A stretch of DNA of 46,539 bases, taken from positions 1 to 46,539 of the forward strand of contig CADDYV010000025.1 in assembly GCA_902810695.1 (NCBI GenBank), in the 5' to 3' direction. The DNA is from Actinomycetota bacterium (GTDB lineage: Bacteria > Actinomycetota > Rubrobacteria > Rubrobacterales > Rubrobacteraceae). The position numbers and the translations under genes are program-made. The notes under the pieces were generated by a model. The model searched no databases. It saw nothing but the letters and a program-made list of their open reading frames with translations, and was not told the origin of the DNA. Of this stretch, positions 39,950 through 46,416 are shown piece by piece (within the stretch, counting starts at the first letter, position 1; every line of letters starts with the position of its first letter).

Positions 39950-40040
39950 TTCTCCTCCTTTTCCCGGTAACTGAATCCGGGATTTAATTTTACTACCTCG
40001 CAGGGAGAGGCTCGGCAGAAAATCGCGTGCAGGCGCGTGC

Positions 40041-40046
40041 TAGAAT
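40041..40046 (+). promoter_or_regulatory. -10 element of the carboxylase operon (leaderless)
   Basis: TAGAAT ends 8 nt before the ATG at 40055, and no ribosome binding site is present. No clear -35 at the usual distance. Same geometry as at 2871, 3848 and 29613. Confidence 0.45.
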
Positions 40047-40054
40047 GCCCGGAT

Positions 40055-41629
40055 ATGCAAGGTGAAAGGCTCGGGGAGAGAAGTACCGCCGGTAAGATCG
40101 AGGGCCTGAAGAAGCTGCGCGAGGCTGCTGCGAACCCGGCTTCCGAGAACGCCGTCGCGCGCCAGAAGGAGAAGGGCAAGCTCACCGCCCGCGAACGCAT
40201 AGAGTTGCTTCTGGACGAGGGAACTTTCGTCGAGCTGGACCGCTACCGGGTGCACCGTTCCTACAACTTCGGGCTGGAGAAAAACCGGCCCCTGGGAGAC
40301 GGGGTCGTTACCGGGTACGGTGAGATCAACGGCAGGAAGGTCTGCGTCTTCTCGCAGGATTTTACGGTCTTCGGCGGTTCTCTGGGCGAGGTCTACGCGC
40401 AGAAGATCTGCAAGGTCATGGACCTCGCGCTCTCGACGGGATGCCCCATAATCGGGTTGAACGACTCGGGCGGGGCGCGCATCCAGGAGGGCGTGGTCTC
40501 TTTAGCGGGATACGCCGACATCTTCCACCGCAACGTCAGGGCTTCGGGGCTCGTGCCCCAGATCAGCGTCATCATGGGGCCGTGCGCGGGCGGGGCGGTC
40601 TACTCGCCCGCGATCACCGACTTCATCTTCATGGTCGAGGAGACGAGCCACATGTTCATCACCGGCCCCGATGTCATAAAGAGCGTAACCGGCGAGGAGG
40701 TCAGCTTCGAGGACCTGGGCGGCGCGGGGACGCACAGCACCAAAAGCGGCGTTGCCCACTTCTCCGCACCCGATGAAGAGACGTGCCTCGAAGACGTACG
40801 CTACCTGCTCTCGTTTTTGCCGGAAAACAACCTGGAGACGCCGCCGTACTACAAACCCACCGACTCGCCGGAGCGGATGGAGGAGGCTCTGGCCTCGCTC
40901 GTTCCCGACTCGCCCCGGCAACCCTACGACATCCGGGAGGCCGTCGGGATGGTCGTGGACGACGGGGAGTTCTACGAGGTGCAGGAAGGCTGGGCGCAGA
41001 ACCTCGTCGTCGGCTTCGCGAGGCTCGACGGGCACGCCATCGGCGTCGTCGGGAACCAGCCGATGGTGCTGGCGGGGACGCTGGATATAAACGCGAGCAT
41101 CAAGGGAGCGCGGTTCGTCCGCTTCTGCGATGCCTTCAACATCCCGCTTCTCACCTTCGTGGACGTGCCGGGGTTCATGCCGGGCACAGACCAGGAGTGG
41201 GGTGGCATCATCCGCCACGGAGCGAAGCTCCTCTACGCCTTCTCCGAGGCGACGGTCCCGAAGATGACCGTCATTACCCGTAAGGCTTACGGCGGGGCCT
41301 ACGACGTCATGTGCTCCAAGCACATCGGGGCGGACGTGAACGTCTCGTGGCCGACGGGTGAGATCGCGGTGATGGGCGCGCCCGCTGCGGTCGGGATCAT
41401 CTTCAGGCGCCAGATCTCCGAGGCCGAGAACCCGGAGGCCGAGCGCGAGGCGCTCATAGAGAACTACGAAGAGCAGTTCAACAACCCGATGGTCGCCGCC
41501 GAGATGGGATACCTGGACGACGTGATAGACCCGCGCGAGACGCGCCCCTACCTCATCAAAGCCTTGCAGATGGTCCGCTCCAAGCGCCCCGAGCGGCCGC
41601 AGCGCAAGCACGGAAACATCCCGCTTTAA
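40055..41629 (+). CDS. Acyl-CoA carboxylase, carboxyltransferase (beta) subunit
   Basis: Transfers CO2 from carboxybiotin to acetyl- or propionyl-CoA. A 524-residue crotonase-fold carboxyltransferase with both halves. The N-terminal half has [20 protein letters not shown] and the acyl-CoA site [20 protein letters not shown] with oxyanion [12 protein letters not shown]. The C-terminal half has [20 protein letters not shown] and [21 protein letters not shown]. Asp in AYGGAYDVM is the residue linked to propionyl-CoA preference in actinobacterial AccD5/PccB, so propionyl-CoA is the likely main substrate. The ATG at 40055 is set by the leaderless promoter; a TTG/CTG-type start 18 bases upstream is less likely. 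Confidence 0.93.
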
Positions 41630-41684
41630 GATATGCTGCCGGATAAAATGGTGTAGAGCACCTGGCAGGCGATTGGAGTTAGGC

Positions 41685-42638
41685 ATGTCGAAGAGCAAAG
41701 TATCTGAGGCTTCGGGTACCGTCCTGGATGCGATCGGAGATACCCCACTTATCGAGGTAGAAGGAATATGGTGCAAGCTGGAGTATCTGAACCCTTCGGG
41801 TTCGATCAAGGCGCGCATCGCCAAATACATGATCGAACGCGCCGAGCAGGAGGGCCTGCTCAAGCCCGGCGACACCATCGTCGAGGCCACATCCGGCAAT
41901 ACCGGAAACGCCCTCTCGATGGTCGCCGCCGTAAAGGGCTACAGGATGCTCGTGGTGATGCCGGAGGGGATGAGCTCGGAGAGGGTAGCCATAAGCCGGG
42001 CGTTTGGGGCCGATATCCTTCACGTTGGCCACTTCCACGTGGATGAGGCGCTCACCAAAGCCAGGGAGCTGGGACGCGAGGAGGGCTACTTCTGTCCGTC
42101 GCAGTTCGAGAGCGAGTGGAACGTGGAGGAGAACAGAGTATGGCTGGGACCGGAGATCCTCTCCCAGCTTCCCGAGGGAAGAGTGCCCGACGCGCTGGTG
42201 ATGGGAGTTGGCACGGGCGGGACGATCGTCGGGGTCGGGCAGACTTTCCGGGAAGTCAACCCCAGGGTGCGGCTGTTCGCGATGGAGCCCGACGAGTCTT
42301 GCACCATACTGTGCGGCGAGGTGGGTGAGCACCTGATCGAGGGGATCTCCGACGGGTTTATCCCCGGCATCTTCTCCCGACACCAGAACCTGGTGGACAC
42401 GACGCTCTCCGTCGGGAGCGAGGAGGCGGTCGAGGCGATGCGGTACCTGGCCAGGCGTTACGGGCTCTTCGTGGGACCTTCGAGCGGGGCGAACCTGGTG
42501 GCCGCCAGAAGAGTCAGGGAGAATCACCCGGAACTGAAGGCGGTTGTTACGCTGTTTTGCGACGAGGGTGAGAAGTACATCCAGGAGCACTTCGCGGAAC
42601 CGGACGAGGTGCAGGTGGACGCGGGGACGTTCTCCTGA
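41685..42638 (+). CDS. Second cysteine synthase-family PLP enzyme
   Basis: A 317-residue fold-type II PLP enzyme. It has IGDTPLIEVEGIWCKLEYLN, the Schiff-base Lys in NPSGSIKARIAKYM, the phosphate loop ATSGNTGNALSMVA, and GVGTGGTIVGVG. The family includes cysteine synthases, cystathionine beta-synthases and related beta-replacement enzymes. It differs from the CysM at 29.6 kb in the N-terminus and in the YFCPSQFESEWNVEEN segment, so it is probably not a simple duplicate. Its place, between carboxylase beta and epsilon/alpha, is unusual. The ATG 41685 (TTGGAGTTAGGC upstream) is preferred to the TTG four codons earlier. Substrate unresolved. Confidence 0.85.
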   Translation: MSKSKVSEASGTVLDAIGDTPLIEVEGIWCKLEYLNPSGSIKARIAKYMIERAEQEGLLKPGDTIVEATSGNTGNALSMVAAVKGYRMLVVMPEGMSSERVAISRAFGADILHVGHFHVDEALTKARELGREEGYFCPSQFESEWNVEENRVWLGPEILSQLPEGRVPDALVMGVGTGGTIVGVGQTFREVNPRVRLFAMEPDESCTILCGEVGEHLIEGISDGFIPGIFSRHQNLVDTTLSVGSEEAVEAMRYLARRYGLFVGPSSGANLVAARRVRENHPELKAVVTLFCDEGEKYIQEHFAEPDEVQVDAGTFS

Positions 42639-42835: not shown

Positions 42836-44566
42836 ATGTTCGAGAAGGTGCTGGTGGCGAATCGCGGCGAGATCGCCGTCAGGATAATCCGCGCCCTGCG
42901 GGAGCTTGGCGTATCCAGCGTCGCTGTCTACTCGGACGCCGATAGGGAGTCGCTGCACGCGGAGCTTGCGGATGAGGCTTACCACGCCGGTCCGACGCCC
43001 GCTGTCGAGAGCTATCTGAACATCGAGAAACTCGTCGAGGTGGCGAGGCGTTCGGGAGCGGAGGCGGTGCATCCGGGGTACGGATTTCTGGCGGAGAGTG
43101 CCGCGTTCGCTCGGGCGGTTGGGGAGGCGGGGTTGGTCTGGATCGGACCTCACCCAGAGGCGATAGAGGCGATGGGCTCCAAGGTCGAGAGCCGCAGGAT
43201 CATGTCGAGGGCCGGGGTTCCGATCACACCCGGCACCGAAAACCCGATAGAATCCGCCGACGCCATTTTCGAGTTCGCCGGAGTGCATGGTTATCCGGTG
43301 GCGATCAAAGCCTCCGCGGGCGGCGGGGGCAAGGGCTTTGCCGTCGCATGGGACAAGACGGAGGCGAAAGGTGCCTTCGAGCGGGCGAGCCGGGAGGGTG
43401 AGGCGTACTTCGGGGACGGCGCCGTGTACCTGGAACGTTATCTTTCGGGACCGCGGCACATCGAGATACAGGTCCTGCGGGACCGGCACGGTAACGCCGT
43501 CCACCTCGGCGAGCGGGACTGCTCGATCCAGCGCCGCCACCAGAAGCTCGTCGAAGAGTGCCCCTCTCCCGCCATAGATCCCGCGATGCGCGAAGAGATG
43601 GGTGAGGCGGCGCTCCGGGCGGCGGAGGCCGTCGGGTACGACAACGTGGGAACCGTGGAGTTTCTGGTGCAGGACGAGGATTTCTACTTCCTGGAGATGA
43701 ACACCCGCGTGCAGGTCGAGCACCCCATAACCGAGGAGGTTACGGGGGTGGACATCGTGCAGACCGGCATCCGGATCGCCGCCGGAGAGCCCCTGCCCTT
43801 CTCGCAGGAGGAGATAAGCTGGCAGTGCCACGCCATAGAGGTCAGGCTGAACGCCGAAGACGCCGCGAACGGATTTGCCCCGAGTCCGGGCTTCGTTACC
43901 GTCTATGGGGAGCCGGGTGGACCCGGAGTACGGGTGGACTCCTCGCTTTGGGGGCCGGGGCTGGTCCCTGAATCCTACGACCCGCTCTTCGCCAAGCTCA
44001 TCGTCCGCGGCTCGGATCGGGAGGATGCTCTGCGGCGGCTGCGGCGCGCCCTTGCGGAGTTCAGGGTAGAGGGGATCTCCACGACGCTCCCGTTCTTTGA
44101 GGCGATTCTGGACGACGAGGTCTTCGTCTCGGGCAGATACACCACAGGGTTCATCGAAGAACGGATGGAGAAGCTGGAGATCGAAGCCGCTCCTGTCGGC
44201 GAGAAGGACGAGGCCCCGGAGAAAACGGTCCGGGAGGTCGAGGTCGAGGTGAACGGGAGGCTCTTCCGGGTGAAGGTCTACTCCGAAGGGGAGCAACCGG
44301 ATGACAGCGCGCCGAGGCGCAGGACCCTCACGAACCGGCGGGCGGCGGTGAGCGAGGGAGCGGTAACAGCCCCGATGCAGGGGACGATCGTGCGGGTGCT
44401 CGTCGAGGAAGGCCAGGAGGTCGCCACAGACGAGGCAGTGTGCGTGCTGGAGGCGATGAAGATGGAGAGTGAGATCCGCTCCCAGAGAGGCGGCACAGTC
44501 TCGAAGGTTCTCGTCGAGGAAGGCCAGACCGTGCGCTCCGGCGACCCGCTCATAATAGTAGAGTAA
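42836..44566 (+). CDS. Acyl-CoA carboxylase alpha subunit (biotin carboxylase + BCCP)
   Basis: A 576-residue biotin protein. Residues 1-445 are an ATP-grasp biotin carboxylase: VLVANRGEIAVRIIRALREL, the Gly-rich ATP loop KASAGGGGKGF, EMNTRVQVEHPITEEVTGVD, and DPLFAKLIVRG. A linker (~445-505) leads to the C-terminal biotinyl domain with EAMKMES; its Lys near residue 541 is biotinylated. Such alpha chains serve both acetyl- and propionyl-CoA carboxylases and pair with the beta and epsilon subunits encoded upstream. ATG 42836 directly follows the epsilon stop, with GGGAGGGG upstream. The linker shortness (no BT-domain) fits the actinobacterial AccA type. Confidence 0.95.
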   Translation: MFEKVLVANRGEIAVRIIRALRELGVSSVAVYSDADRESLHAELADEAYHAGPTPAVESYLNIEKLVEVARRSGAEAVHPGYGFLAESAAFARAVGEAGLVWIGPHPEAIEAMGSKVESRRIMSRAGVPITPGTENPIESADAIFEFAGVHGYPVAIKASAGGGGKGFAVAWDKTEAKGAFERASREGEAYFGDGAVYLERYLSGPRHIEIQVLRDRHGNAVHLGERDCSIQRRHQKLVEECPSPAIDPAMREEMGEAALRAAEAVGYDNVGTVEFLVQDEDFYFLEMNTRVQVEHPITEEVTGVDIVQTGIRIAAGEPLPFSQEEISWQCHAIEVRLNAEDAANGFAPSPGFVTVYGEPGGPGVRVDSSLWGPGLVPESYDPLFAKLIVRGSDREDALRRLRRALAEFRVEGISTTLPFFEAILDDEVFVSGRYTTGFIEERMEKLEIEAAPVGEKDEAPEKTVREVEVEVNGRLFRVKVYSEGEQPDDSAPRRRTLTNRRAAVSEGAVTAPMQGTIVRVLVEEGQEVATDEAVCVLEAMKMESEIRSQRGGTVSKVLVEEGQTVRSGDPLIIVE

Positions 44567-44570
44567 GAGC

Positions 44571-45662
44571 GTGGCCGAGCAGGCATCGGAGTTCGAGTGG
44601 CGCGGCGGGGGCGAGGAAGCCGAGATCTTCCTCTACGCGCCCGATGATTCCGCGTTCGAGCGGGTTCTTCCCGCCACCAGGATTCCCGGCGTGGGGAGCC
44701 CCGTATACGCCGCCGCATCCCAGGATGGTTTCGGATGGGCCGCCGCTTCCTCCTCGCACGTTGCACCGGACCTCTTCTCTGCTCCCGTTTGCGGATTGCT
44801 GTTAACCGCGGAGGTCGCTCTCGGGAACCTCGGGATGCCGCCGGAAGAGGTGCCACGTCTTATCTCACGCAACCTCACCGAGGTGCGCCTGCCTTCTCTC
44901 TCCGAAGCGGGGGTGCGCAGGATCTGCGAGTCCGGCGCGTACGGGGCCGCGGAGGACGGTCTGATCGAGGAAGAAGACCTGCAGTTCTTCGGCAGACGGG
45001 AGAGTGAGCCCGACTCGCTAATCCGCCGGGCGATATCCGCCGGAACGCGCGACTGGGACGAACCTGGAAAGGTGCAGGTGTACTCGATAGAGGAGATTCT
45101 GGACTCGGAGAGGGCGGAATCCAGGAATCTCGGAGCAGGTGCGCTTGCCGTAGTTACTTGGGTCGGAGCAGGAGAACTCGGGCGGCTCGCGCTCGATGCC
45201 CACCACCAGCGCATCGCGGACCGGGCCGAGAGCGGCGACTTCGGTGCGGAAGCGGATCTCCCGGCAGCTCCGGTGGATACCGAGGAAGCAGACGATCTCC
45301 TGGCGGCAGCCGGGGCCGCGTCCAACTTCGCGGACGGGCGCGCCGCGCTCTTGCTGTACGCGCTGAGGCGTTCCCTGGAGGAGGTTGCCGGAGCGTTGGG
45401 GCTGCGGGCGGTATGGATGGTCGGTGGGGTCGAGGATCAGGACGGTCTTCTCGTTCATCGCTGGAGGCTTGCTGCGGTGAGGGAGGGTGAAGTTCTGGTT
45501 GCGGGCGATAACGTGGCGGCGGGAGCAGGTAGGATGCTCGGAAGTGCTCCCGCCTTCGGTGTGCCGGAGAGCGAGGGACGCTGGATCTGGGAGGAAGCCG
45601 GGTTGCTGGAGCGTTTAGCCAGAATGCGCTCCATAGAGAGTGGGAGTCGGGAAAGACGATAG
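44571..45662 (+). CDS. Degenerate RtcB-like protein (catalytic residues lost)
   Basis: A 363-residue protein following alpha by 4 bp. Its blocks line up in order with RNA ligase RtcB. APDLFSAPVCGLLLTA matches the 'vGvDIGCGM' active-site strand, ALAVVTWVGAGELGRLALDA matches the 'iMlHSGSRGiG' block, and LAAAGAASNFADGRAALLLY, then VWMVGGVEDQDG, match the 'AmqFAslNR...HHNy' part. But the Asp of D-x-x-C-G is Ala (Cys kept), the His of HSGSRG is Thr, the later His is Gly, and the C-terminal HGAGRxMSR block is missing. It should bind no Mn/GTP in the normal way. The neighbourhood (carboxylase, DUF5654) does not explain it. Alignment by eye only. Confidence 0.5.
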   Translation: MAEQASEFEWRGGGEEAEIFLYAPDDSAFERVLPATRIPGVGSPVYAAASQDGFGWAAASSSHVAPDLFSAPVCGLLLTAEVALGNLGMPPEEVPRLISRNLTEVRLPSLSEAGVRRICESGAYGAAEDGLIEEEDLQFFGRRESEPDSLIRRAISAGTRDWDEPGKVQVYSIEEILDSERAESRNLGAGALAVVTWVGAGELGRLALDAHHQRIADRAESGDFGAEADLPAAPVDTEEADDLLAAAGAASNFADGRAALLLYALRRSLEEVAGALGLRAVWMVGGVEDQDGLLVHRWRLAAVREGEVLVAGDNVAAGAGRMLGSAPAFGVPESEGRWIWEEAGLLERLARMRSIESGSRERR

Positions 45663-45674
45663 GGAGGAGTCAGC

Positions 45675-45923
45675 TTGAGCAGCGAAGTTCTGGATAAGAT
45701 GTTGCAACTCATCACTGCGGCCTTCGGGCTGGTGGCGGCGCTGGCATGGAATGACGCCATCCAGACGCTGTTCGGGGCGGTTTTCGGCACGCAAGGAAAC
45801 CTTGCCGCCAAGTTTTTCTACGCGGTAGTCGTAACCGTTGTGATGGTCATCGCCACGGTAAGGCTCGGGAGGTTGGCCGAGCGGGTCCGGAAAGGAGAGG
45901 AAGAGGAGTCTACCTCTCCCTGA
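45675..45923 (+). CDS. DUF5654 family small membrane protein
   Basis: An 82-residue protein with a TTG start (SSEVLDKMLQLITAAFGLVA), a first helix (~8-25), AWNDAIQTLFGAVFGTQGN, and a second helix AKFFYAVVVTVVMVIATVRLG. The AWN-x-(A/T)-I..LF...FG pattern is that of DUF5654, a two-helix membrane family of unknown function. GGGAGGAG precedes the start. Likely the last gene of the carboxylase operon; its end overlaps the end of the convergent BFN gene by 14 bp. Confidence 0.8.
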   Translation: MSSEVLDKMLQLITAAFGLVAALAWNDAIQTLFGAVFGTQGNLAAKFFYAVVVTVVMVIATVRLGRLAERVRKGEEEESTSP

Positions 45924-46416
45924 AGTCCTCCGGAGAGACCCTGTTTACCCACTCCTTGAACTTGTCCACAACCTCCTCTTCGGGAGCTTCCTCCATAGAC
46001 TCCTCGAAGACGACGCTCGCCTCCTCTATGACTTCGTCGGAGGCGAAGATCTCAGCTCCGGATCTAATCGCCAGAGCTATAGCGTCCGAAGGCCGGGAGT
46101 CTACCTCCACGACGCGCCCATCTATCTCCAAGGTGATGGTGGCGTAGAAGGTGGACTCTTCGAGCCGGGTTACCGTTACCCGCTCCATGGAGCCGCCCAG
46201 CTCGTTGACGAGGTTTACCGCCAGGTCGTGGGTTAGAGGACGGGGAAACTCCTGGTTCTGGAGTTTCATGAGGATTGCACGGGCTATGTCCTGGCCGATC
46301 CAGATCGGGAGGTAGCGGTTATCGTCCTCGACCTTGAGTATCACGATAGGAGTGGAGCTGAAAAGATCCATGTTGATGCCGTAAATGGACATCCGGGTGA
46401 AGCCATCAGCGCTCAC
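45910..46416 (-). CDS. Bifunctional nuclease (BFN/DUF151) family protein
   Basis: A 168-residue protein of the DUF151/BFN family. Typical are the opening INMDLFSSTPIVILK with DDNRYLPIWIGQDIARAILM, the middle THDLAVNLVNELGGSMERV, and VEVDSRPSDAIALAIRSGAEIF, which carries the conserved RPSDA. The acidic tail (EESMEEAPEEEVVDKFKEWV) corresponds to the region near the putative UvrC-like UVR motif of relatives. Plant BFN1 is a nuclease; bacterial members are common in actinobacteria and their role is not settled. GTG start 46416 behind GAGAGGAGC. Confidence 0.9.
   Translation of the reverse strand: MSADGFTRMSIYGINMDLFSSTPIVILKVEDDNRYLPIWIGQDIARAILMKLQNQEFPRPLTHDLAVNLVNELGGSMERVTVTRLEESTFYATITLEIDGRVVEVDSRPSDAIALAIRSGAEIFASDEVIEEASVVFEESMEEAPEEEVVDKFKEWVNRVSPEDFRER

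Follow-up and report, generated by a model that had tools for sequence, protein, structure and literature searches.

To our knowledge, RtcB has been treated as a fold with a single function, that of an RNA ligase that occurs in every domain of life. Lys480 of the P. horikoshii enzyme matters for catalysis. The active site of this ligase holds two Mn ions and GMP and involves Asp95, Cys98, His203, His234, His329 and His404 (PMC10630183). A precedent for non-catalytic protein binding by RtcB is given by the RtcR system, in which the CARF domain of RtcR is a binding partner of E. coli-type RtcA and RtcB, whose catalytic activity is not needed for this (PMC9650030). More broadly, pseudoenzymes such as the trypanosomal AdoMetDC prozyme have, as outlined in the sources cited, kept their fold, lost catalysis, remained under selection and probably act by binding, all of which seems to apply to the protein described here; the prozyme of those accounts activates its own active paralogue, however, whereas the RtcB-fold protein persists in genomes without an active RtcB (PMC5201418, PMC5106787).

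The gene described here belongs to the class Rubrobacteria. It is fairly probable that it encodes a class-specific, vertically inherited RtcB pseudoenzyme that acts by binding a protein or a non-RNA ligand and not by RNA ligation.

The RtcB-fold gene and its neighbours

The window, that is, the whole stretch of DNA that was analysed (46,539 nucleotides), contains an intact open reading frame for a protein of 363 amino acids (44571..45662, forward strand), identified as a relative of RtcB by Pfam, PDB and profile matches, by an AlphaFold2 model and by its orthologues. Its GTG start lies 4 nt past the stop of a gene for a biotin carboxylase with a C-terminal BCCP domain (42836..44566, forward strand). 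The same operon region includes, on the same strand, a gene for a carboxyltransferase subunit (40037..41629), for which the best model is mmdA, of the PccB/AccD-type CT family. Between the two carboxylase genes is a cysteine synthase-like gene (41673..42638, forward strand), to which none of the relatives' loci examined has a match at E 1e-5, and which therefore looks like a lineage-particular insertion. The next gene downstream encodes a small DUF5654 protein (45675..45923, forward strand), as is often the case, and is followed by a convergent gene for a bifunctional-nuclease-domain (BFN) protein (45910..46416, reverse strand). The BFN gene is the constant convergent neighbour, and in this genome its end overlaps the end of the DUF5654 gene. 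A full RtcB gene adjoining an archease gene is present on a different contig of the same genome, so the RtcB-fold gene is a second, divergent homologue.

The RtcB fold

The initial annotation had seen the order and content of the RtcB blocks in this protein, and the sequence match does run from end to end. The single sequence matches the Pfam RtcB family with 24.2 bits (E=2.3e-5), short of the PF01139 gathering cut-off of 27 bits, which a handful of orthologues narrowly exceed (28-37 bits), and it finds Thermus TTHA1785 (2epg_A) with E=4e-7. Profile-profile comparison with RtcB (hhalign), a search of the type that had been proposed together with structure prediction, gives a probability of 98.3% and E=1.3e-14 over 351 columns.

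An AlphaFold2 model made from the 26-row orthologue alignment A1 has a pLDDT of 93 and a pTM of 0.92. The top 16 Foldseek matches to this model are all RtcB (E 1.7e-19 to 1.2e-15), and the 17th has E=0.14. In VIA-align, 347 of the 363 residues can be aligned with TTHA1785/RtcB (Z 41.4, rmsd 2.1), and P. horikoshii RtcB gives Z 37.5; only RtcB entries score above the best non-RtcB chain, at Z 5.3. The weak, partial matches to other folds (Z about 5) were taken as chance. The protein is thus confidently predicted to adopt the RtcB fold over its full chain, as the initial annotation expected, and no fold unlike RtcB emerged.

The closest likeness is to the RtcB1 type (PF01139; archaeal and Thermus-like RtcBs such as PH1602 and TTHA1785), with which the protein shares the whole fold (Z 37-41, rmsd about 2.1-2.2 Å), the order of strands and helices, and the scaffold motifs L-P-G, D-L, R-A, A-A-P-x-x-S/T-x-E and V-H-R. 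It differs from this type in being about 110 residues shorter, acidic and Lys-poor, in the absence or lack of conservation of Asp95, Cys98, His203, His234, His329, His404 and the terminal Lys, and in that its gene also occurs where archease is missing. The RtcB2-type ligases found in other genera of the class are members of the same superfamily and co-occur with the RtcB-fold gene in some genomes, but the profile similarity to them is insignificant at this depth (hhalign probability 0.2%); by profile scores the RtcB-fold family is far closer to RtcB1 than to RtcB2.

Loss of the ligase active site

The metal-binding Asp and His residues of RtcB, which the initial annotation described as replaced, are all either replaced or deleted in the profile alignment and across 26 orthologues. 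The equivalent of Asp95 falls inside a deletion just before C74 (profile alignment). In the 26 orthologues, the His203 column is occupied by G, V, F, A or E, and the His234 column is equally variable (R, G, D or S, with W once), W197 being the residue at this site here (codon 45159..45161, forward strand). His329 is replaced by Trp in every orthologue (26/26); this residue, W282 (codon 45414..45416, forward strand), is followed by an invariant G285-G286. The Cys of D-x-x-C-G had been thought to be kept, with a check of its conservation in relatives suggested, and that check goes against it. C74 (codon 44790..44792, forward strand), which pairs with catalytic Cys98 in the orthologue and profile alignments, is retained only in this genome and in genus g2; the column contains R in 17 of the 26 orthologues, C in 3, W in 2, Y, L and A in one each, and one masked position. 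The family therefore does not have the two-metal site (Asp95, Cys98, His203, His234 and His329) that an RtcB ligase requires.

The C-terminal active-site block had been reported as gone. This is correct for H-G-A-G-R, the block of the guanylylated His404, which is deleted and whose aligned column has no conserved His under every alignment setting tried. The region as a whole, however, is only shortened. The V-H-R block survives as a remnant of the RtcB V-H-R-K-G-A block in orthologue and profile alignments (codons for H296-R297 at 45456..45461, forward strand), with H296 in 25 and R297 in all 26 of the orthologues, and the last core strand is retained. The chain stops before the position of the terminal Lys: the structural match to PH1602 ends with the pairing of model residue 357 and P. 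horikoshii residue 478, two short of Lys480, and the orthologue tails have no Lys there. Residue pairing in the C-terminal third shifts with the alignment settings, and single pairs in this part are tentative; the loss of His404 is independent of these uncertain pairings.

Much else in the protein is conserved. Among the 26 orthologues there are 33 invariant columns, with a mean column identity of 58%, and the invariant polar residues are R100, D136, R153, R160, H211, R214, D242, R267, R297, E341 and E342. The last two belong to a family-invariant W-E-E motif (W340-E341-E342, codons 45588..45596, forward strand) just past the site of the lost H-G-A-G-R block (His404). That the protein is non-catalytic is something that we infer, since these invariant polar residues could form a new active site.

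The composition of the family also seems ill suited to RNA. The 26 RtcB-fold proteins have a median pI of 4.6, a net charge of -24 and one Lys per protein, compared with a pI of 6.4, a net charge of -3 and 19 Lys for the true RtcBs of the same class. RNA binding is unlikely because the RtcB-fold protein is so acidic and almost free of Lys, and the RNA-sensing role that had been suggested for it loses ground accordingly. The companion suggestion of nucleotide sensing finds no support, the GTP- and metal-binding residues being gone. A new ligand is possible.

Distribution and selection

Orthologues are present in 34 of the 39 genomes of the class, some of them cut by contig ends. Three of the five genomes without the gene are incomplete (G017, G028 and G032; 60-83%), and absence from G022 is uninformative, its BFN gene running up to a contig edge, which leaves G010 as the only clean absence. 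In 11 orthologue pairs, dN/dS ranges from 0.16 to 0.36 with NG86 and, for the pairs computed, from 0.09 to 0.24 with YN00. The gene is under purifying selection across the class; with dN/dS well below 1 and orthologues in so many genomes, it is real and not a chance reading frame. Pairwise divergence tracks that of rpoB (r=0.85, slope about 4), as expected from vertical inheritance.

In the tree, the RtcB-fold family forms one clade with 100/100 support, and its branch is about 3 changes per column long. Its point of origin within the RtcB tree is left unplaced, since attachment is unreliable for so long a branch. The proposal in the initial annotation of a catalytically stripped RtcB-fold family is supported, and the clade bears out that the family is a distinct one; its non-ligase role we also infer.

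A family-profile search of 296 genomes of the phylum outside the class, with at most six candidates scored per genome, gave only matches to full-length RtcB in open frames of at least 460 residues. All the matches listed when 84,980 species genomes were scanned by pattern were in Rubrobacter-type or unclassified actinobacterial contigs, and no relatives of the family were found in the viral contigs searched. Within what was searched, the family is specific to the class.

In Rubrobacter marinus (NZ_CP045121; L048 / L093), the carboxyltransferase and RtcB-fold genes are both frameshifted. Since the carboxyltransferase gene is affected too, assembly error is a likelier cause than gene death.

Possible functions

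Because the active site is gone and yet the gene is selectively kept across the class, the fold has probably been put to another use. On this reading, an ancient descendant of RtcB retained the fold while the site for metal and GTP was lost, and it would now serve as a scaffold or regulator by binding either a different protein or, in a remodelled pocket, some ligand other than RNA. The partner is the least certain part of this explanation. Tentatively, this may be the first family of the RtcB fold whose function has nothing to do with RNA, a regulator connected with acyl-CoA metabolism that binds a ligand or a protein and has a new site around Trp282 and conserved Arg, His and Glu residues. 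Gene order points to the acyl-CoA carboxylase, or to the metabolism around it; direct binding to the carboxylase we regard as rather unlikely.

The leading specific rival is that the protein is dedicated to the acyl-CoA carboxylase encoded upstream, as an accessory subunit or regulator, in a role like that which small epsilon subunits play in actinobacterial carboxylases. Its strength lies in the gene order. Nearly all loci examined have the carboxyltransferase, biotin carboxylase-BCCP and RtcB-fold genes in this order, with the convergent BFN gene downstream, often after DUF5654, and in nearly every locus outside genus g2 the RtcB-fold gene lies directly behind biotin carboxylase-BCCP, usually within 50 nt (4 nt here). 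This linkage is seen in ten of the genera examined, and to that extent the initial annotation was right to place the gene in a carboxylase operon; the link, however, is not obligate. The genomes of genus g2 (G001 and G013) nowhere encode the carboxyltransferase or the orthologous biotin carboxylase, but they keep the RtcB-fold gene, between a dehydrogenase gene and, as here, the BFN gene; it has a dN/dS of 0.20-0.26 and evolves no faster or slower than rpoB predicts (mean residual 0.00 sd). Conversely, G010 has the two carboxylase genes but no RtcB-fold gene; the loss is clean, with no remnant in the 414 bp gap between biotin carboxylase and BFN genes. Gene order thus ties the RtcB-fold gene strongly to the carboxylase, but the tie is obligatory in neither direction, and since g2 keeps the gene without the carboxylase, a further role must exist for it or at least be possible. 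A carboxylase subunit is therefore a doubtful reading, and one that must explain g2. Some other biotin-dependent enzyme could be a partner there, as g2 retains paralogous biotin carboxylases, the best of them about 55% identical.

The g2 RtcB-fold protein is 55% identical to the copy in this genome, with 87-90% for neighbours. Faster evolution in g2 after loss of the carboxylase was considered and rejected (residuals of 0.00 sd against rpoB, -0.26 sd against BFN and +0.31 sd against the dehydrogenase). The g2 loci L081 and L088 show a clean natural deletion of both carboxylase genes between the dehydrogenase and RtcB-fold genes, which is useful for testing the role of the carboxylase.

It is unlikely that the protein has acquired a new function, enzymatic or ligand-sensing, in a putative remodelled pocket with invariant Trp282 in the place of His329 together with the invariant Arg, His, Asp and Glu residues. 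The invariance of these polar and aromatic residues, several of them not found in RtcB, despite fast evolution fits such a pocket, but H296, R297, D178, P234, E239 and R153 look like inherited RtcB scaffold.

Far less probable is a regulatory paralogue of true RtcB, acting for example in a heteromer or in competition for archease. Homology to RtcB1, and the co-existence of RtcB1 and archease with the gene in this genome, would suit such a role. However, RtcB and archease are missing from many genomes that keep the gene, including the near-complete G004 and G016 (3-4 contigs), and RtcB-fold and RtcB genes are adjacent in no locus examined. RtcB1 with archease is present in nine genomes of the class, and about ten genomes of at least 90% completeness have the RtcB-fold gene without any true RtcB (G002, G003, G004, G005, G011, G012, G015, G016, G023 and G027; the G005 copy is cut by a contig end and the G023 copy is frameshifted). 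Persistence in such genomes makes regulation of RtcB unlikely, and the distribution across the class led us to reject regulation of RtcB or archease.

True RtcB (e.g. G000:C10:74404-76264) is itself patchy in the class, with RtcB1 and archease in some genera, RtcB2 without archease in others, and neither in many near-complete genomes. At L064 (G031:C189, 19-2337), an RtcB2-type ligase is split by an apparent intein just before the catalytic Cys, and RtcB2 frames of 800-1100 amino acids in other genomes of the class may hold the same intein.

Least credible is a decaying, functionless gene carried along in the operon, for which one could cite the fast divergence (slope about 4 against rpoB), the loss of the active site, the frameshifted R. 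marinus copy and the clean loss in G010, but which is effectively refuted by the class-wide dN/dS (0.09-0.36 in 11 pairs), the 33 invariant columns and retention in 34 of 39 genomes, the R. marinus frameshift being a likely assembly error.

Implications

No paper describing a pseudo-RtcB family of this kind turned up in the library searched. For annotation, the family is a warning that a low-scoring RtcB match in these genomes does not mark an RNA ligase; to credit genomes such as G004 and G016 with RNA repair would be a mistake. For the fold itself, a pseudo-RtcB that is kept class-wide, even in genomes without an RtcB ligase, would show that the RtcB fold has a second use.
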